Positions 5,742 to 21,873 of a stretch of DNA of 22,388 nucleotides are shown here, in pieces. The position numbers and the translations under genes were made by a program. Positions within the stretch are counted from its first letter, which is position 1; every line of letters begins with the position of its first letter. Below the pieces are notes generated by a model. It was given only the letters and a program-made list of their open reading frames with translations. It did not search any database and had not been told where the DNA came from. The DNA lies in IMG/VR virus record IMGVR_UViG_3300043122_000070, positions 1 to 22,388 of that record, one strand, 5' to 3'. This stretch comes from a virus.

Positions 5742-6023
5742 TTAGTGTTTCTTCTGAGCCTTCTCAAGCTTTGCTATCACAATGTCCATCTTATCTTCAA
5801 ATGCTTGCTTCTCATCAGCAGCTTCTTGGTAGATCTTCCCCAGTGTACACCGTGTAGTGATTAATGCAAGCTCCTTGTCACTGATAGCTATCTCTTCTAC
5901 CACTTCACCAGTGTCATTCATCTCTTGCATGTATTCCCAATCAATCTCTCCCCAGATAGCTTCGAGGTGCTTCTTGTCGAACTCTGAGAGGATCTCTGGA
6001 GAGTCTTCTTCGAAGCTGTTCAT
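5742..6023 (-). CDS. Hypothetical acidic protein, 93 aa
   Basis: An acidic, largely helical soluble protein; its last 30 or so residues (EDKMDIVIAKLEKAQKKH and before) are compatible with a coiled coil. Function is unknown. The ATG at 6023 follows TAGGAGT and overlaps the upstream stop as ATGA; the in-frame ATG 19 codons earlier would lie inside the upstream gene. Confidence 0.75.
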   Translation of the reverse strand: MNSFEEDSPEILSEFDKKHLEAIWGEIDWEYMQEMNDTGEVVEEIAISDKELALITTRCTLGKIYQEAADEKQAFEDKMDIVIAKLEKAQKKH

Positions 6024-6533: not shown

Positions 6534-6565
6534 CTCAAATCCTCCTTCAGTTAGTGTGCAGAGTC

Positions 6566-6594
6566 ATCTTAGGACTTCCTTGCCCTGCTGTCAA
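6566..6594 (-). promoter_or_regulatory. Sigma-70 promoter, leftward
   Basis: Leftward TTGACA (6589-6594), a 17-nt spacer and TAAGAT (6566-6571) lie in the 67-nt gap upstream of the gene starting at 6533. The first promoter of the block (14786-14815) has the same -35 and -10 hexamers. Confidence 0.6.
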
Positions 6595-6600
6595 GAACTT

Positions 6601-6798
6601 TTACACAAAGTCTTCGTGGACAACCTCGTTAGTTAGGATGTTGAAGATGTGCCCAAAATTGTAGCCGTCCTCACGAGGTGCCATCAGAGAGTATAGGAAC
6701 ATCTTAGCTTCTTCAAGCTCATCAAAGTCTTGGAAGAAATCATCCATGCCTCCTAGAGGATGCTCTGCATTGAAAGCAAATACCATGTAAGTCTTCAT
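6601..6798 (-). CDS. Hypothetical protein, 65 aa
   Basis: A short acidic protein starting MKTYMVFAFNAEHPLGG, which looks like one beta strand followed by helix. Function is unknown. AAGGAGC precedes the ATG, and the upstream stop TAA overlaps the ATG by one base. It is the last gene before the gap containing the promoter at 6566-6594. Confidence 0.75.
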   Translation of the reverse strand: MKTYMVFAFNAEHPLGGMDDFFQDFDELEEAKMFLYSLMAPREDGYNFGHIFNILTNEVVHEDFV

Positions 6799-7025
6799 TA
6801 GCTATGCTCCTTAAAGAATGTGTTGTACAGGCTCTCTAGTCCAATATCCTTGTTAGTGTCCCACTGCTCACACCTCCGCAGATACTCCCCAAGAGCCTCA
6901 TTAGTTTGAGCTAGTGCAGCTCGCATCTCTGCAAGATCTTTACAGACCTCTCTGAAAGCTGTGTCCAGCTCAGATTCACTGTAAGGGACTGGCAGGGGCT
7001 TGTTAAGGGTTTCTTTTAGGCTCAT
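6798..7025 (-). CDS. Hypothetical helical protein, 75 aa
   Basis: A mostly helical, charged protein; residues 18-55 could form a coiled coil. Not recognised. TAAGGAG precedes the ATG, and that SD overlaps the stop of the 40-residue gene upstream. Confidence 0.75.
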   Translation of the reverse strand: MSLKETLNKPLPVPYSESELDTAFREVCKDLAEMRAALAQTNEALGEYLRRCEQWDTNKDIGLESLYNTFFKEHS

Positions 7026-8713: not shown

Positions 8714-8850
8714 TCTCGGACACCCTCCGTGACGGAATCTTGGAGGTCTTCCAGCTCCTCCTGAGCCTCCAGAAGCATCTTAGCAAGCTGGTAGGCGCTG
8801 TACTTCTCGGTGAGATCAACAGCATCTTCGTGGGTCTTGAAATTATTCAT
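8710..8850 (-). CDS. Small coiled-coil protein, 46 aa
   Basis: An acidic, fully helical-looking protein with heptad-like spacing of hydrophobics. The ATG at 8850 has TAAGGAG at good spacing. Both the SD and the first codons lie inside the 3' end of the HNH gene, so translation depends on sequence kept within that gene. Function is unknown. Confidence 0.68.
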   Translation of the reverse strand: MNNFKTHEDAVDLTEKYSAYQLAKMLLEAQEELEDLQDSVTEGVRE

Positions 8851-9652
8851 AAGTGTTCTCCTTAAATTGTTCCTGTTGGCTTTCTGCGAAGTCAACCCCA
8901 TGGTAAGGATGTTCTGGGTGTTTGTCAAGCATTTCTTTCAGTGTTCTTTTTGCCTCGTTAATATCCTTCGCATGTCTCCGAACCCTCTTCCCTTGAATTA
9001 TCAGCGTCACCACCCATGCGTCTCTATTTTCACGCATCGAGATGTAACGGTATCCAGAGGGCGTATTGGCTTCCAGTGTTTTGACTGGTTTTGCACGTTC
9101 CTGTCTTTTCTCCCCGTGCCCCGATGAGAACCCATGTAATTCTCGGAAAGATTTTACAGCGGAAACCGCATCCTCTTTTTCGTCAAAGTACCCTAAGTTT
9201 CTGGTGATATTTTTGTACGTTCCATGGGCGACCCATTTAGAATAATTTGGGTACCAGCTCACACCTGAAAATCCAGATGAGTTGTCTTTCCTGAGAGATG
9301 CATTGCGTGTGTTTTCCTCAAAAGTAATGATTCTTAGGTTACACCACCTGTTATCATCTCCTTGCCTGTTTATATGATCTATCACGTATCCGTGGTCTGG
9401 CCACTCCCCTTTCATATAAAACCACGCCAATTGGTGTTCCGGCACTAGTGTACCTAAAAGACCAACGCAACGTTTTAAATACCCTCCTCTGTTTTGCACA
9501 GAACCCGCCCGCTTCCCAACGCGGGCTTTTCCGGAGGGTGTGGAAGCGTCTGGGTGAGATCTCCATGTAAACACCCCAGTCTCACAACTGTATGAAAGTC
9601 GTGCTCTGACATACTCTTGGGTAACAACTTTTCGAAATTCATCTATTTTCAT
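8843..9652 (-). CDS. HNH homing endonuclease with AP2-like domains
   Basis: This is a 269-residue free-standing HNH endonuclease. Its N-terminus resembles the SYSCETGVFTWRS lead-in seen in phage HNH proteins. The HNH core runs from EHQLAWFYMKGEWPDHG through VIDHINRQGDDNRWCNLR to ENTRN (about residues 80-125). Two AP2-like DNA-binding segments follow, one at SGFSGVSWYPNYSKWVAHG and one at SGYRYISMRENRDAWVV. Such proteins cleave DNA to copy themselves into related phages. I prefer the ATG at 9652 after GAGGG. A TTG at 9679 or ATG at 9664, before and after an A10 tract, would add 9 or 4 residues. It is inserted between small early genes. Confidence 0.85.
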   Translation of the reverse strand: MKIDEFRKVVTQEYVRARLSYSCETGVFTWRSHPDASTPSGKARVGKRAGSVQNRGGYLKRCVGLLGTLVPEHQLAWFYMKGEWPDHGYVIDHINRQGDDNRWCNLRIITFEENTRNASLRKDNSSGFSGVSWYPNYSKWVAHGTYKNITRNLGYFDEKEDAVSAVKSFRELHGFSSGHGEKRQERAKPVKTLEANTPSGYRYISMRENRDAWVVTLIIQGKRVRRHAKDINEAKRTLKEMLDKHPEHPYHGVDFAESQQEQFKENTYE

Positions 9653-9679
9653 ACCATCCCTCATTTTTTTTTTAGACAA

Positions 9680-10378
9680 CTACAGGTTTTCAAAAGTTGA
9701 GATCAGAGTTTGGGGAAATCCTTTTAATCTATATCCAGCTTCTGTTAGATGGTAGTCGTAACCCAAACCTCCTATTACCTTACAAACATCCTCTACCTGA
9801 TTGTCGTCTACCCAACCTTCGAGCATCTTCTGGCCTTCCTCATCTTCTTGGACATACACCCCGTAGGTCTCAAGTATCTCCAAGTTAGCTTCCTTGACAA
9901 ACATCCCCATTATCATGCAACCGCCACGATCCTTGATATCCTCCCAAGCCACCTCAACACATTCTTGAAGGCTCCATTCCTTACTCTCTGCGTAGCGCTC
10001 CAGAGCCTCTACATAGTAACCCACCTCTTTGAGGATTTCAACAGAATTATTGTGCTTAGGATCTTGTGAGATCTCCACCATCCATTCGAGGCTGTTGAGA
10101 CACTGTCCGATGTTGCTCTTGAGGCTATCCTCTTTGGGGAGGATGTCCCGTACAGCATAACGTGCAAGGGAGGCTGTACTGCCAAGAATCCCTGCGATCA
10201 TTGAGAGGACAACGTATTGATCCCCTAATGAGTCTTTGTCATCATCTGTTAGCATCTCTTCGTACTCTTGGCGCAACTTTTTACATTGAGCACTCACACG
10301 TTTCATACGGTTCTCTTGAGTGGTTACTGTGATACCCCTCTCGTGGCCCCACTGTAGGATTGAGTTCTCTCTTTTCAT
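9680..10378 (-). CDS. MazG-like nucleotide pyrophosphohydrolase
   Basis: This 232-residue protein carries the signature of the MazG / all-alpha NTP pyrophosphohydrolase superfamily, which hydrolyses NTPs or alarmones to the monophosphate and pyrophosphate. Visible elements are ILQWGHERGIT (residues 7-17), the metal-binding QEYEEM (about 37-42) and DSLGDQYVVL (about 49-58). The late segment runs from WSLQECVEVAWEDIKDRGG to FVKEANLE. Usual phage forms are about 100-130 residues. Here an extra helical stretch of some 70 residues separates the DxxGD region from the AWEDIKDR region, and about 60 unassigned residues follow. GAGGAGGA precedes the ATG, which overlaps the upstream stop as ATGA. Confidence 0.75.
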   Translation of the reverse strand: MKRENSILQWGHERGITVTTQENRMKRVSAQCKKLRQEYEEMLTDDDKDSLGDQYVVLSMIAGILGSTASLARYAVRDILPKEDSLKSNIGQCLNSLEWMVEISQDPKHNNSVEILKEVGYYVEALERYAESKEWSLQECVEVAWEDIKDRGGCMIMGMFVKEANLEILETYGVYVQEDEEGQKMLEGWVDDNQVEDVCKVIGGLGYDYHLTEAGYRLKGFPQTLISTFENL

Positions 10379-11112
10379 ATTTCCTCCTCGTTGTTTTTCA
10401 GGTCGCTCTCGTAAGAAGTTGATTTAATCTTACCATAAAATTTAATCTCAGCATCCTCCCGCGCCTTGATTGCCTCTTCAAGGCTGTGAGTGCAAAGCAA
10501 GTGGTATTGCTCCCCTCCGTGGCTGATAACAGCTTGGTAGGTTGGATTCTCGGGATTTGAATACGATGTCTCTGTGACTCCAGTCCTCCCTGTTTTATTA
10601 CTCTTAAATCTCCGTCTATTATATGCCTGATCAGCACTACTGGACCACTTGCAATTCTCGGGAGAATAGTTCCCGTTGGAGTCTATCCTATCCAAGGAAA
10701 GTCCTGCTTCGGGTTGTCCCATATCCTCAATGAAATTCGTCACGCCAGTGTCTTTATCCAACCACCGATCACACACCCTGATACCACGGCCGCCGTAGTA
10801 CCTATAGTTTTCGTCATTTGGATTATAACACCGACGTTTCATCATTGTATAGGATTTATAGGCTCTAGTCTTTGTAAGGCCGTGCTTTCTGCACCTATCT
10901 ACCACAGTTTTTGTCAAAAGACACCCACATGACTTTGAGCCTTTGCCGATGTTACCAAAACGTAACACTTTAGTTTTTCCACACTCGCAGATCACTTCCA
11001 CTTGCCGCACCCGCTTACCTTTAGGGGAGACAACAGGTTCTACATCTCTTAGGAAGGTCAGTTGTGTTCCTTCGAACTTGTGACCTTTAGTTAATTCTAT
11101 TTTGTATTTCAC
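10375..11112 (-). CDS. HNH/AP2-type phage endonuclease-like protein
   Basis: This is a 245-residue protein of a family common in phages and usually annotated as HNH endonuclease or AP2-domain protein. It has a small Cys motif, CECGKT...SCGCL (about residues 41-65). The conserved block follows, with YGGRGIRVCDRW, then FIEDMGQPEAGLSLDRID and NGNYSPENCKW. A C-terminal GRTGV segment is AP2-like. It starts with GTG after AAGGAGG at long spacing. It is paralogous to the gene at 12235-12927. Its 3' end contains the SD of the MazG-like gene. A self-mobilising nuclease role is inferred from the family; catalysis in this sub-type is not certain. Confidence 0.8.
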   Translation of the reverse strand: MKYKIELTKGHKFEGTQLTFLRDVEPVVSPKGKRVRQVEVICECGKTKVLRFGNIGKGSKSCGCLLTKTVVDRCRKHGLTKTRAYKSYTMMKRRCYNPNDENYRYYGGRGIRVCDRWLDKDTGVTNFIEDMGQPEAGLSLDRIDSNGNYSPENCKWSSSADQAYNRRRFKSNKTGRTGVTETSYSNPENPTYQAVISHGGEQYHLLCTHSLEEAIKAREDAEIKFYGKIKSTSYESDLKNNEEEI

Positions 11113-11991: not shown

Positions 11992-12238
11992 TAGTCACTC
12001 TCCGGTATGTGCTGTAGTCACCATCTTCAATCTGCTGAAGATTCCCTAGAATATACTCGTGGAACCTGTTCGGGTGTAGCTTTGAGTGTGCCTCACAGTA
12101 TTTGTACGCAGCAGGGATTCCCAAGTGGCTGTGAAGGAACTCCATAGTGCCGTCAGGAAGCACACCGTACGCCTCTACCCTTTTGTTGTTCTGCTTGTAT
12201 CCTTCTTGGAGTTCATCGAAGAGTTCTTGTGAGATCAT
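11978..12238 (-). CDS. Hypothetical protein, 86 aa
   Basis: A soluble protein with mixed charge, no membrane segment and no recognised motif. The ATG at 12238 follows AAGGAG and overlaps the stop of the upstream HNH/AP2-type gene as ATGA. The SD therefore lies inside the endonuclease gene's last codons. Confidence 0.74.
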   Translation of the reverse strand: MISQELFDELQEGYKQNNKRVEAYGVLPDGTMEFLHSHLGIPAAYKYCEAHSKLHPNRFHEYILGNLQQIEDGDYSTYRRVTNEQR

Positions 12239-12927
12239 TTTTCGCACTCCTTTATGTGTCCATAGACTTCTATTTCTGCTTCTTCTCTGGCACGAACTGC
12301 CTCGTCGAAGTCAGATGTCGTCAACAGCACCTTTAATTTACCATCTTTGCGGATGGCTGCCCTGTACTTAACAACCCCTTTTCTACTCACCACGATGTCA
12401 ACACCCGTCCTGCCTGACTTATTCTTGGGCCTCCGACGTTTATTAAACGATTGTTCTTTCACGCCCGCCCATTTACAGTTCTCCGGTGTATAGTCTCCAT
12501 TCACATCTTTCCTCTCTAAGGACGTCCCTTCTGGTCTTGGTCCAAGATCTTCTACAAAATTGACTACACCAGTTCCCTTCTCTCGCCACCTGTCGCAGAC
12601 TTGGATGCCTCGTCCCCCGTAGAGGTAATACTCAGCACAGTCCACTTTGTAACACCGTTTCATCATAGAGCCATAACTACTGTAAGCACCTGTTTGAGAT
12701 AGCCCATGTTTTCTATGACGTGCTGAGGATAGCTCAGAAGACAAGCACCCACAAGACCTGATAGACAAGTGCCTGACAGTTGCGACCGTTTTTATGCAAG
12801 TCTTTCCGCAGTCGCACAAGAACACACATTGTCTCTTCCCCAGCTTGGTATCCTCTGCTTCTCTTACGTAGCGTAATCTAGTCCCCTCGAACCTGTGTCC
12901 CAGACTGTATTCGTAACGTTTCTTCAC
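12235..12927 (-). CDS. HNH/AP2-type protein, paralogue of 10375-11112
   Basis: A 230-residue paralogue of the protein at 10375-11112. Shared features in the same order are GHRFEGTRL near the N-terminus, CDCGKT...SCGCL, the HGLSQTGAYSSY segment, YGGRGIQVCDRW, FVEDLGPRPEGTSLERKD, NGDYTPENCKW and C-terminal GRTGV with an AP2-like tail. It also uses a GTG start, here with GAGGAGGT. The family is associated with free-standing homing nucleases. One substitution to note is SLERKD where the relative has SLDRID. Confidence 0.8.
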   Translation of the reverse strand: MKKRYEYSLGHRFEGTRLRYVREAEDTKLGKRQCVFLCDCGKTCIKTVATVRHLSIRSCGCLSSELSSARHRKHGLSQTGAYSSYGSMMKRCYKVDCAEYYLYGGRGIQVCDRWREKGTGVVNFVEDLGPRPEGTSLERKDVNGDYTPENCKWAGVKEQSFNKRRRPKNKSGRTGVDIVVSRKGVVKYRAAIRKDGKLKVLLTTSDFDEAVRAREEAEIEVYGHIKECEK

Positions 12928-16649: not shown

Positions 16650-16726
16650 GCGCCTATGGCTCAACTGGATAGAGCAAGAGTTTTCTAGTCTCTAGGTTGC
16701 AGGTTCGAATCCTGCTAGGCGCGCCA
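16650..16726 (+). tRNA. tRNA-Arg (anticodon TCT)
   Basis: A complete 77-nt cloverleaf. Acceptor GCGCCTA pairs with TAGGCGC. D stem GCTC pairs with GAGC around AACTGGATA. T stem GCAGG pairs with CCTGC around TTCGAAT. The discriminator is G and CCA is encoded. The anticodon loop TTTCTAG places TCT at 16684-16686, reading AGA codons. The lowest anticodon-stem pair (T31-T39) is mismatched. The D arm sequence is typical of tRNA-Arg. Confidence 0.88.
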
Positions 16727-16957: not shown

Positions 16958-17032
16958 GGGCCTTTAGCTCAATGGGAGAGCGGTCAGCTCATAACTGATT
17001 GGTAGTGAGATCGAAACTCACAAGGCCCACCA
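16958..17032 (+). tRNA. tRNA with CAT anticodon (Met or Ile2)
   Basis: Acceptor GGGCCTT pairs with AAGGCCC, then discriminator A and an encoded CCA. D stem is GCTC/GAGC with a short loop. Anticodon stem GTCAG/CTGAT holds the loop CTCATAA. T stem is GTGAG/CTCAC. The CAT anticodon fits elongator tRNA-Met or, if lysidinylated, tRNA-Ile for AUA codons; I cannot separate these by eye. It is not a clear initiator. The T loop is ATCGAAA, so the usual T54 is A. Confidence 0.85.
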
Positions 17033-18257: not shown

Positions 18258-19148
18258 ATGCAGAACACTAACGAGAGCTTTTGGGTTGACTGGATAGACC
18301 CAGCAGATGACACTTTGAAGTATCTAGCTGTCAGTGCTGCTTCAGGGCACTACTGGACAGATGATACACAAGATCCAAACATTGTTGACGGGTCTCTACT
18401 AGAGATCAAATACACAGAAGAAGACACCATGCAGCAGATTGGTCAGAAGTGGAAGATGCCTAACGGCGGACGCCAGTATGAACGACACAATCTCATCAAA
18501 CACCCTAACGAGCACGCTTGGATTGCTGTGATGAAGCTTCCGAGTGGTGCGCGTACAGAAGACGACAAACTGATTAGAACCTATCAAGCGTTCTGGTCAC
18601 GTAAGTTCAAAAACGTAGTATGCATCTCGAGGATTACTGGCAAGTGTCAAGGTAATCCCACCTTCCAAGATAAAGAGCTTGCAAGAGCCTCTTCAGCAAA
18701 AGCAAAGATTGCTCGTAAGAAGAAACTGGAGACTCTTGAAGCAGCTTCTAAGCGCCTCAACTTCAACCCTGCCGAGCAGCTAATCGCATGGGCACAAGGC
18801 GATGAAGAGAAGCTAAACACACGGCAACCCATTACGAACGCTCAGCGTATTAAGTGCCTTGAGATTCTGGCAGGCTACTCGTGGGCTAAACCGAAACCAG
18901 TTGACCCGATGGCGCTTGAGAAGGCTAAGCAGTCTGAGAACACAGGGCCAACAGTTCACGTTACGCTGCCTAGCAACACTCGTGAGCTATCCCAGCACGT
19001 TATCTCCCATCAGGACTCAGAGAGTCTTGACAAGTACTTCAAAGATGCGTATAAAGAACCTGACGAGGTTCAAGCTGTCAGTGAAGAAGCTGGCGAATAC
19101 GATGAAGAGGCTGGTGGGTTTACACTGCCAGATAACGGGAGGGAATAA
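18258..19148 (+). CDS. Probable terminase small subunit
   Basis: A 296-residue protein directly before the large terminase. The middle segment LNFNPAEQLIAWAQGDEE followed by NAQRIKCLEILAGYSWAKPK resembles the helical region of many phage small terminases (NPxExL...A...L.YxxPK). That region precedes a disordered acidic tail, present here from about residue 225. The N-terminal 130 residues are unlike a classic small terminase and may be an extra domain. The small subunit binds phage DNA at the packaging start site and regulates the large subunit. The call rests on gene order plus this segment. GAGGAGAG precedes the ATG. Confidence 0.6.
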   Translation: MQNTNESFWVDWIDPADDTLKYLAVSAASGHYWTDDTQDPNIVDGSLLEIKYTEEDTMQQIGQKWKMPNGGRQYERHNLIKHPNEHAWIAVMKLPSGARTEDDKLIRTYQAFWSRKFKNVVCISRITGKCQGNPTFQDKELARASSAKAKIARKKKLETLEAASKRLNFNPAEQLIAWAQGDEEKLNTRQPITNAQRIKCLEILAGYSWAKPKPVDPMALEKAKQSENTGPTVHVTLPSNTRELSQHVISHQDSESLDKYFKDAYKEPDEVQAVSEEAGEYDEEAGGFTLPDNGRE

Positions 19149-20062
19149 TGGGAAATACAGAAGCAGTCTACGAACTTTACTGGGTACGGGAGAAACACCA
19201 CACGTCTATCACCAAGGAAGGTTATGTTGGGATCACTTCAACAGGTCTCAGTAATCGCCTAAAATCCCATAAGAGTTCAGCTCTGAAGGGTGAAGGGTGG
19301 ACGTTCCAAGAGAAGATACGTGAGATTGGTCTTGAGAATATGGAGGCCAGTGTAATGTGCGTAGGCTCTTTTGAGTACATTCAAGCGTTGGAGCTGAAGC
19401 TGCGGCCCCACCCTTACATAGGTTGGAACCACGCGAAAGGCGGTGGAGGTCACACTCCAGAGTTTGCGAGAGAGCGGCAGAAGAAGGTCATGGAAGAGAT
19501 GCGCGGGACAGACGCTTGGTATGAGCGTATCGAGAAGTATAAAGAGTCCATGCAGAAGCATTGGGATGACCCAGAGTTCCACGCTAAACGCTCAAAAGCA
19601 CACAAAGAGTCTTGGGTTGGTAACGATGAACGCCGACGTGCTACGTCCGAACGAGCTAAGAAGCTGTGGGAAGACGAGGATTATAAGCAGCGTATGACTG
19701 CCCACACAAAGGCACGCTGGGAAGATCCGGTCTACCGAGAAGAGCGTGTAGCAGAGCTGAAGGATCGTTACAAAGACCCTGCCTACAGAGAGAAGCATAG
19801 TAAGTCAGCTTCGGAGGCTGCAAAGCGGAGATACGCCAACCAACCATGGTGGCATCACCCGAGCTGTAACAAGGTGTCTGCTGAAGTTGCTGACGAAGCT
19901 TATGTACTTTGGAGCACTAACAGGTGGGGCCATAAGCGAGTAGAGAAGGCACTAGGTTTGAAGCTCTACGCACTCGACTCCCTTATAAAACGGTTCCGTA
20001 AAGGGTGGGTTCCTTTAGAAGACCATGAGTGGGTTAAAGAGTTCAAAGGAGGTTCTGAATGA
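19148..20062 (+). CDS. Free-standing GIY-YIG homing endonuclease
   Basis: A 304-residue protein. The N-terminal GIY-YIG domain shows YELYWV, GYVGIT and the catalytic-region Arg in NRLKSHK. It then has ALELKLRP followed by YIGWNHAKGGGG (about residues 80-102), the usual late catalytic Glu and GWN motif. Four short repeats with the theme WxDPxY (HWDDPEF, LWEDEDY, RWEDPVY, RYKDPAY) between about residues 138 and 215 resemble NUMOD3 DNA-binding modules. A helical C-terminus follows. The start overlaps the small terminase stop (TAATG) and the end overlaps the large terminase start (ATGA). The likely role is nicking or cutting DNA of related phages near terL. Confidence 0.88.
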   Translation: MGNTEAVYELYWVREKHHTSITKEGYVGITSTGLSNRLKSHKSSALKGEGWTFQEKIREIGLENMEASVMCVGSFEYIQALELKLRPHPYIGWNHAKGGGGHTPEFARERQKKVMEEMRGTDAWYERIEKYKESMQKHWDDPEFHAKRSKAHKESWVGNDERRRATSERAKKLWEDEDYKQRMTAHTKARWEDPVYREERVAELKDRYKDPAYREKHSKSASEAAKRRYANQPWWHHPSCNKVSAEVADEAYVLWSTNRWGHKRVEKALGLKLYALDSLIKRFRKGWVPLEDHEWVKEFKGGSE

Positions 20063-21873
20063 CAGGATATACAAACCTCAAGCCGCAGGAAGGTAAGCAG
20101 GATCTTTTCATGCGCAGCGAGGCCGATATTTGCTTGTACGGCGGCGGTGCTAGGTAACTGGCCGCTTCAGCAGCAATGCTGGAGAGAGTATTGGGTGAAT
20201 TGCTGGAAAGCTAAGTCTTCGGATATGCCAATCAGCAGCCAAGCCTGTTAAGCGTAACAGGAAGGTTCAGAGACTACTGGGTTCAACACGATCTTGTTGA
20301 GTAATACCAGACTAGCGCCCAACATCCTTATGGGATGATGATATAGTCCATGCCCGCCGAAAGGTGGGATAAAATGGGTTCTGGGAAGACATTCGCTCTT
20401 CTCATGGAATGCCTCCGCCATCTAAATGTTCCAAATTTCTACACGTTGTTCCTTCGACGTACCAAAGCAGAGATTAAACTTCCGGGCGGCCCTGTCGATG
20501 AATCAAGGAATATGTTCCCTCAGTTTGGAGGAGAATACTTTGAGTCGTCTATGAAGTGGGCCTTCCCGTCAGGCTCTAAAGTCCAGTTTGCAGGTATCGA
20601 ATTAGATAAAGACCTTGAGAACTTCAAGGGTTCACAGGTTCCGTTAACCGATCAGCGGCTCTAATCAGCAATGGTTAGATGATAACCGGATGAATTCAGG
20701 GGAAGCCTTCGGGTAATCCTGAGCCAAGCCTATTAAGCGTAGTAGGAAGGTGCAGAGACTAGGTGGTGTGACACGATCTTGTCACGTAATACACCAATAG
20801 CGTCCGGCATCCTAATAGGATGATGATATAGTCCACAAGTGATCATATTCGATGAAGCAACAGGCTTTACTGAGCGTATGTTCTGGTATCTTCTTTCACG
20901 TAACCGTTCCAGTACAGGAGTAAAATCTTATGTTCGTGCGACCTGCAACCCGGTAAGCGAAGGGTGGGTGCGTAAGCTAGTAGACTGGTGGATTGACGAT
21001 GACGGGTATCCAATAGAAGAACGTTGTGGTGTCCTTCGTTGGTTTGTCCGCCGAGGTGAAGACACACACTGGTACGACTCAAAAGAAGAGGCTGAGAGGA
21101 TATGGGGCGAAGACGCCATGCCGAAATCATTTTGCTTCATAAATGCAACCGTAAGGGACAACAAGTTAATAGACCCATCATACGAAGCTAACTTGAAAGC
21201 CCTATCTCGTATTGAGCGAGAGGCTCTCTATCTTGGTAACTGGAACGTAAAAGCTAACGCGGGTAGTTACTTCCAGAGTGACTGGTGTGAGTTTGTTGAT
21301 CGTAAAGATGTCCCCAAGGCTAAGTCGGAGATGAGGGCATTTGATACGGCCTCAACAATCCCTTCGGAGGTGAATCCTGATCCTGATTATACAGCCTGTG
21401 TCAAGATACGTCTCGCAGAGGACGGATACTACTATATCATGCACGCAGACCGCGATAGGTTACGACCAGATGGCGTTAAGAAGATGATGCGTAAGTACGC
21501 AGAGCTTGACGGTAGATCCTGTACAGTCGGCATCCCACTAGATGCTGGGGGCGCTGGTAAAGCTGTCTTCGAGGATCATGCGAAGAACCTAGCAGGGTTT
21601 GTCTACAAGAAGTGTAAGACTAACAAGTCTAAGCTGGATCGCTTCCTTCCTTTCTCATCTGCTGCTGAAGCGGGTCTCATCAAGATCGTTAAAGGTGATT
21701 GGAACGACACTTTTATAAGTGAACTAGAGAACTTTGTAGGTGACGGTAAAGGACACGACGATCAAGTGGACGCTTGTGCGGACAGTTTTAACAACCTCGC
21801 AACAACAAAACCCCTCCCCAGTAGCCTCTCATGGAATCCCTCACTAGGCTCCCAGTCAAACGTCTGGGAATAA
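20059..21873 (+). CDS. terL: Terminase large subunit, split by two group I introns
   Basis: The ATP-driven DNA packaging motor and headful nuclease. The proposed spliced CDS joins 20059-20148, 20377-20644 and 20840-21873 and gives 463 residues with no internal stop. Walker A is GGGGSGKT (residues 28-35), restored by joining exons 1 and 2. Walker B is LIIFDE (120-125), whose Leu codon is split T/TG across intron 2. Coupling motif TCNP is at 154-157. The C-terminal RNase H-like nuclease keeps D288 (AFDTAS), D354 (PLDAGG) and D426/D427/D430 (GHDDQVDA). AAAGGAGG precedes the ATG, which overlaps the endonuclease stop. Without splicing, exon 1 ends at TAA soon after the P-loop, so no working motor would be made. 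Splice sites are deduced from RNA pairing and protein alignment, not from RNA data. Confidence 0.9.
20149..20376 (+). ncRNA. Group IA intron 1 in terL
   Basis: A 228-nt ORF-less self-splicing-type intron. P1 pairs exon GCGGT (20144-20148) with GCCGC, giving the U-G pair at the 5' splice site. P2 is CAGCA-GCAA-TGCTG. The core matches the canonical elements: AATTGCTGGAAA (P), AATCAGCAGCCAAGC (Q), GTTCAGAGACTA (R) and GATATAGTCC (S). P6 is CCTGTT/AACAGG. P7.1 is a long stem (CTGG/CCAG with TCAAC/GTTGA). P3 pairs TTGGG with CCCAA. P8 is CATCC/GGATG. P9 is CCCGCC-GAAA-GGTGGG. The last base is G (20376). P10 pairs AACT with exon 2 GGTT. P7.1 between P7 and P3 places it in subgroup IA. Confidence 0.9.
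20645..20839 (+). ncRNA. Group IA intron 2 in terL
   Basis: A 195-nt ORF-less intron related to intron 1. P1 pairs exon CCGT (20641-20644) with GCGG, with U-G at the splice site. P10 pairs intron GATCA with exon 3 TGATC perfectly, fixing both splice sites. P2 is CTAATCA-GCAA-TGGTTAG. P3 pairs CCGGA with TCCGG. P4 pairs TCAGG with CCTGA. P6 is CCTATT/AGTAGG. P7 uses AGAGACTA with TATAGTCC. P7.1 has GGTG/CACC and GTGAC/GTCAC. P8 is CATCC/GGATG. The 3' end is G (20839). It lacks the P9 hairpin present in intron 1 and is close to the minimum size for this intron class. Confidence 0.9.

Follow-up and report, generated by a model that had tools for sequence, protein, structure and literature searches.

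The DNA analyzed here (hereafter the window) is the entire viral record IMGVR_UViG_3300043122_000070 of IMG/VR, 22,388 bases long, in which a free-standing GIY-YIG homing endonuclease gene, P0001, lies between a terS-like gene and a terL gene split by two introns, all on the + strand. The terS-like gene (18258..19148; open reading frame [ORF] of 296 amino acids [aa]) is named from its position and clade homology only: its protein had no terS match in Pfam or PHROG, and a terS-like neighbor with 39 to 65% identity lies 5′ of terL in the related loci L003, L004, L006, L007, L008, L009, and L106. Its stop codon has one base in common with the ATG of P0001 (19148..20062, 304 aa), and the last 4 bases of P0001 overlap the terL ATG at 20059, confirming the claim of an earlier note on this DNA that the nuclease gene ends within the terL start codon. 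The terL ribosome-binding site (AAAGGAGG, 20045..20052) falls within the nuclease 3′ end. The terL gene comprises exon 1 (20059..20151), exon 2 (20377..20644), and exon 3 (20840..21873; Terminase_6C, E = 1e-25; PHROG_979, E = 5e-117). Its introns lie in the Walker A codons (intron 1, 20152..20376; site 0 in what follows) and before Walker B (intron 2, 20645..20839; site 2, occupied at the same place in L004 and L106). Both are ORF-less and, at 225 and 195 nucleotides (nt), respectively, too small for a nuclease gene, as the same note had said. Intron 1 begins 89 nt and intron 2 582 nt beyond the P0001 stop; the first distance had been given as 86 nt, from a splice site placed 3 nt further upstream.

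Both introns match the group I model RF00028 of Rfam over model positions 1 to 253 (intron 1: 93.2 bits, E = 4e-23; intron 2: 68.7 bits, E = 9e-16). Boundaries were set by splicing after the U of the P1 U-G pair, by the terminal G, and by comparison with uninterrupted homologues. Removal of both introns would give an uninterrupted TerL of 464 aa with GGGAGSGKT (interrupted in the DNA as GGGA|GSGKT) and VPLIIFDEAT intact, and the uninterrupted homologues L003 and L009 read GGGAGSGKT and VPLIIFDELT at the corresponding places. Both are thus group I introns by sequence, with self-splicing predicted from the restored reading frame. A terL search of genome contigs returned no matches. A DNA pattern joining the end of an intron to P-loop codons hit 88 loci, 3 of them in terL (L006, L007, and L008, already known); most of the others we take to be chance matches in putatively PhoH-like coding sequence, and a few further pattern loci were rejected as unrelated.

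Assignment of P0001 to the GIY-YIG family relies on a match to PHROG_314 (“homing endonuclease,” E = 1e-6), on the model of its N-terminal domain, and on weak, below-cutoff matches of its relatives in L009 and L296 to Pfam GIY-YIG PF01541 (E = 0.005 and 0.006); P0001 itself had no Pfam match, PF01541 included. The AlphaFold model was built from two sequences and has a mean predicted local distance difference test (pLDDT) score of 53 over the whole chain, so that the N-terminal domain alone is usable. That domain (residues 7 to 97, 19166..19438) matched the catalytic domain of I-TevI (1ln0, 1mk0), with a Foldseek probability of 1.00 though E = 0.07, and a VIA alignment to 1ln0 gave Z = 9.2 across 85 residues. 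As modeled, P0001 has an I-TevI-like GIY-YIG fold, at about 20% identity to I-TevI. Residues Y11, Y26, R37, H41, E82, and N94 are conserved in the L009 nuclease and presumably have the catalytic roles assigned from I-TevI. The C-terminal part differs from that of I-TevI; it is helical, with weak helix-turn-helix-like matches (residues 245 to 288, 19880..20011; VIA Z about 5, low pLDDT), and P0001 is free-standing rather than intron-encoded. Relatives of P0001 are few: a single-sequence search of viral contigs found no close ones, a search with a two-row alignment found 5 loci, of which only the L009 record matched over most of its length (L296 was found later, through the terS search), a PDB sequence search gave no match, and annotated phages yielded four matches only, all weak.

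Nucleases and introns at the junction in related phages

Relatives were collected from viral contigs, with terL and terS as queries (one scan kept the best 80 of 590 loci). Junction contents were read by eye and then checked, and intron positions are given in nucleotides counted from the window's intron 1. L005, which begins within terL, was omitted from the junction counts, and L256 and L294 are one contig. Three types of nuclease occupy the terS-terL junction, namely I-TevI-like GIY-YIG, HNH, and zinc-ribbon/phrog_681. Beside the GIY-YIG gene and the site 0 and site 2 introns of the window, the intron-bearing junctions hold a GIY-YIG tail remnant with an intron at site 0 (L008), an HNH nuclease with an intron at site 0 (L006), an HNH gene with an internal deletion and an intron at site 0 (L007), an HNH tail remnant with introns at sites −9 and 2 (L004), an HNH nuclease with an intron at site −9 (L256), and a zinc-ribbon/phrog_681-type nuclease with three group I introns (L106; 5273-5503, which is 24 nt upstream of the window site, 5802-6001 at site 2, and 6547-6800 in exon 3). 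Where terL is free of introns, L009 has a GIY-YIG nuclease, L254 a zinc-ribbon/phrog_681-type nuclease, and L003 no nuclease, while L296, more distant than the close clade, has a GIY-YIG nuclease. P-loop introns in the clade thus sit at three positions (−24, −9, and 0). The terL genes of L006 and L007 are 99.8% identical, and these two loci are hardly independent. For each of the remnants in L008 and L004, none of 300 shuffles matched as well, and no remnant was recognized at the L003 junction. Each of the 8 nuclease ORFs at the junction, counting the shortened one in L007, shares 4 to 16 nt with the start of terL.

A nuclease or its remnant was present at the junction in 9 of 10 close-clade loci. 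As a background, 131 loci of distant relatives were taken, of which 18 were dropped (no readable upstream sequence or terL N-terminus), leaving 113 with 100 distinct upstream ORFs. Just 1 of these 100 matched an HNH family, in a Pfam tally over the first 25 of 45 families in which the 47 ORFs lacking a terS-like tail motif were scanned again with all families listed; in all 113 readable loci terL was in one piece by tblastn. The difference between close clade and background (P about 2 × 10−11) is descriptive, since the loci are related. The junction between terS and terL is a hot spot for nucleases, specific to this clade.

Nuclease genes also occur elsewhere in the window. Three other genes of HNH type lie on the − strand (8846-9679, PHROG_99; 10378-11112 and 12238-12927, both PHROG_374), so that this phage has a high base rate of nuclease genes, and one in a particular gap is no rarity. 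No Rfam intron was found near these three genes. A MazG-like gene occupies 9683-10378, between the first two. At 795-1565 on the − strand, beside a DNA helicase gene, lies an ORF whose C-terminal part weakly matches DNA-binding and homing-endonuclease PHROGs and which is perhaps a nuclease relic. Upstream of the terminase genes are a tRNA-Arg(tct) (16650-16726) and a tRNA-Met(cat) (16958-17032).

In more distant relatives, further elements have settled in the terL codons for the P-loop and Walker B. L297 and L298 carry an 843-nt terL intron (L297, 3244-4086) at position −6 with an internal GIY-YIG gene. In L299 and L300 the intron is absent and the sequence otherwise near-identical (2 mismatches in 3,035 and 2 in 2,176 flank bases), giving a natural empty site (L299 at 3035). 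All four also have an in-frame P-loop insert, read as a putative intein, that contains a LAGLIDADG domain and matches Hint weakly. In Listeria phage LPML1 (L103, 3342-4121), terL is interrupted at Walker B by a group I intron bearing an ORF of Endonuclease VII type; its terL pieces are annotated as separate hypothetical proteins. Four records of the window's clade (L192, L194, L195, and L196) have more group I introns elsewhere, some near HNH ORFs and some not. In L120, near 5700, the terL P-loop (GGAA*VGGGK) contains a stop codon in frame and two additional residues, the frame being continuous otherwise; this is either a sequencing error or an oddity.

Association of nuclease and intron

The earlier note had proposed collaborative homing into terL and had named co-occurrence of nuclease and introns among relatives as a check. 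Run on these junctions, the check did not discriminate: a nuclease or remnant occurs at all 7 junctions with an intron (intact in 4), but also at 3 of the 4 without one, where the nuclease is intact (L009, L296, and L254; Fisher P = 0.36). L103 and L297 to L300 were kept out of the 7 of 7; L297 and L298 combine a P-loop intron holding its own nuclease with no junction nuclease, L299 and L300 have neither, and counting L297 to L300 would break the 7 of 7. Partners at the junction also vary. The site 0 intron is accompanied by GIY-YIG in the window and as the remnant in L008, or by HNH in L006 and L007, and the GIY-YIG relatives of P0001 in L009 and L296 (26% identity) adjoin an intron-less terL, which indicates that nucleases of this kind can do without an intron shield.

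Exon co-conversion was evaluated by comparing fractions of identical codons in 12-codon flanks with the gene-wide level. None was clear at intron sites in common, and pairs that include the window were near the gene-wide level. Among intron-sharing pairs, those nearest to a signal gave P = 0.057 (L004-L106, site 2) and P = 0.107 on the 5′ and 0.075 on the 3′ side (L008-L006, site 0); because the intron-discordant pair L008-L106 scored P = 0.025 at site 2, no signal was counted. The pair of introns at site −9 is 91% identical, against 72% in the exons, which is only suggestive of horizontal intron movement, as introns from different sites already reach 70 to 85% with the same loosely gapped aligner.

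Nuclease turnover beside terL

We favor a reading in which P0001, a free-standing homing endonuclease, occupies a hot spot of nuclease turnover and the nearby terL introns at best hitchhike, and put the probability of this reading at roughly 0.55. It rests on the contrast of 9 of 10 with 1 of 100, the three nuclease types, the remnants, the overlaps with the terL start, the three loci with a nuclease beside intron-less terL, the same intron site with different nucleases, and the base rate of HNH genes. During co-infection P0001 would most likely cut nuclease-less relatives in or near terS-terL, and repair from its own genome would copy the nuclease gene into the cut relative, with the terL introns carried along if the repair tract were long enough. 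The junction nucleases turn over (GIY-YIG, HNH, zinc-ribbon, decayed remnants), and the introns are retained, relocate, or are lost largely independently of that turnover.

Several observations weigh against this. None of the 7 counted intron-bearing junctions lacked a nuclease or remnant. The window and L008 have the GIY-YIG lineage and the site 0 intron in common although they are not sisters, and L003, the sister of L008, has neither; joint movement of nuclease and intron would give this pattern. The grouping of L008 with L003 has support of 95/93 and 94/89 in clade trees in which the order of the deep forks is not settled. It agrees with terL identity over the first six 60-column bins (L008 to L003, mean about 69%; L008 to the window, about 60%), yet the bin holding site 0 runs the opposite way (67% to the window versus 63% to L003).

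The 7 of 7 and the features common to the window and L008 also speak for strict collaborative homing, in which the target of P0001 would be the P-loop codons of an intron-free terL, intron 1 would abolish that target and so shield the genome, and repair would transfer both elements together. The layout also fits, as it resembles two known systems. In phage ICP1, terL is split by an intron and a T5orf172 nuclease adjoins the N-terminal exon from outside the intron, as in the window, and collaborative homing has been invoked for it (PMC10448857); there the nuclease differs from the I-TevI-like GIY-YIG type, the window has two introns, and splicing was established by reverse transcription-PCR in ICP1 and is only predicted in the window. 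The terL intron with adjacent nuclease is therefore a published layout, to which the window adds a further case. The psbA/F-CphI case of cyanophage S-PM2, restated in PMC6083498, likewise pairs a group I intron with a neighboring free-standing nuclease, of Endonuclease VII type rather than GIY-YIG; cleavage of the intron-less allele by F-CphI and protection by the intron were demonstrated there and are only hypothetical in the window. Further sources report terL introns in Bastillevirinae (PMC11878797) and give a general account of collaborative homing and of the preference of introns for conserved sites (PMC3984707, PMC2814812). For ICP1-like pairs, PMC10448857 also offers the alternative that nuclease turnover leaves them behind, and notes that nucleases at one place may belong to entirely different classes. 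The earlier proposal stands as regards layout, and GIY-YIG nucleases beside intron-less terL, HNH at site 0, the lack of clear co-conversion at common sites, and the Fisher test count against it. Collaborative homing is possible and not favored by the co-occurrence data; the turnover hot spot is better supported, fitting more of the observations, and we regard the strict form as rather unlikely.

Less probable again is that the terL introns are degenerate descendants of classical mobile introns, having lost the nuclease once encoded within them, and that P0001 arrived independently. The existence of terL introns with their own nuclease means that ORF-less introns could be decayed versions, and the GIY-YIG intron at −6 in L297 and L298 with its near-identical intron-less allele in L299 and L300, the Endonuclease VII-type ORF in LPML1, and the HNH genes in or near other introns of same-clade phages all agree with this; on the other side, no nuclease remnant was recognized within any close-clade terL intron (all about 195 to 254 nt). 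It is a little more doubtful still that the introns serve as common shields, such that any group I intron in a stretch of about 24 nt at the terL P-loop would block successive, unrelated junction nucleases, the introns at −24, −9, and 0 being kept while the nucleases are swapped. Domestication of P0001 for packaging, by analogy with the HNH protein upstream of the terminase that reportedly helps packaging in HK97 (mentioned in PMC10448857), would suit its position and translational overlap with terL but is very improbable, as unrelated nuclease types, the deleted form in L007, the remnants in L004 and L008, and the empty junction of L003 suggest a dispensable, interchangeable gene.

This small clade offers a natural test of the ways in which a free-standing nuclease and an ORF-less intron may arrive at one target, presenting at one terL junction a GIY-YIG, HNH, or zinc-ribbon nuclease, a remnant, or nothing, together with an intron at any of three P-loop sites or no intron. 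If the introns did act as common shields, collaborative homing would belong to the site rather than to a single pairing of nuclease and intron.

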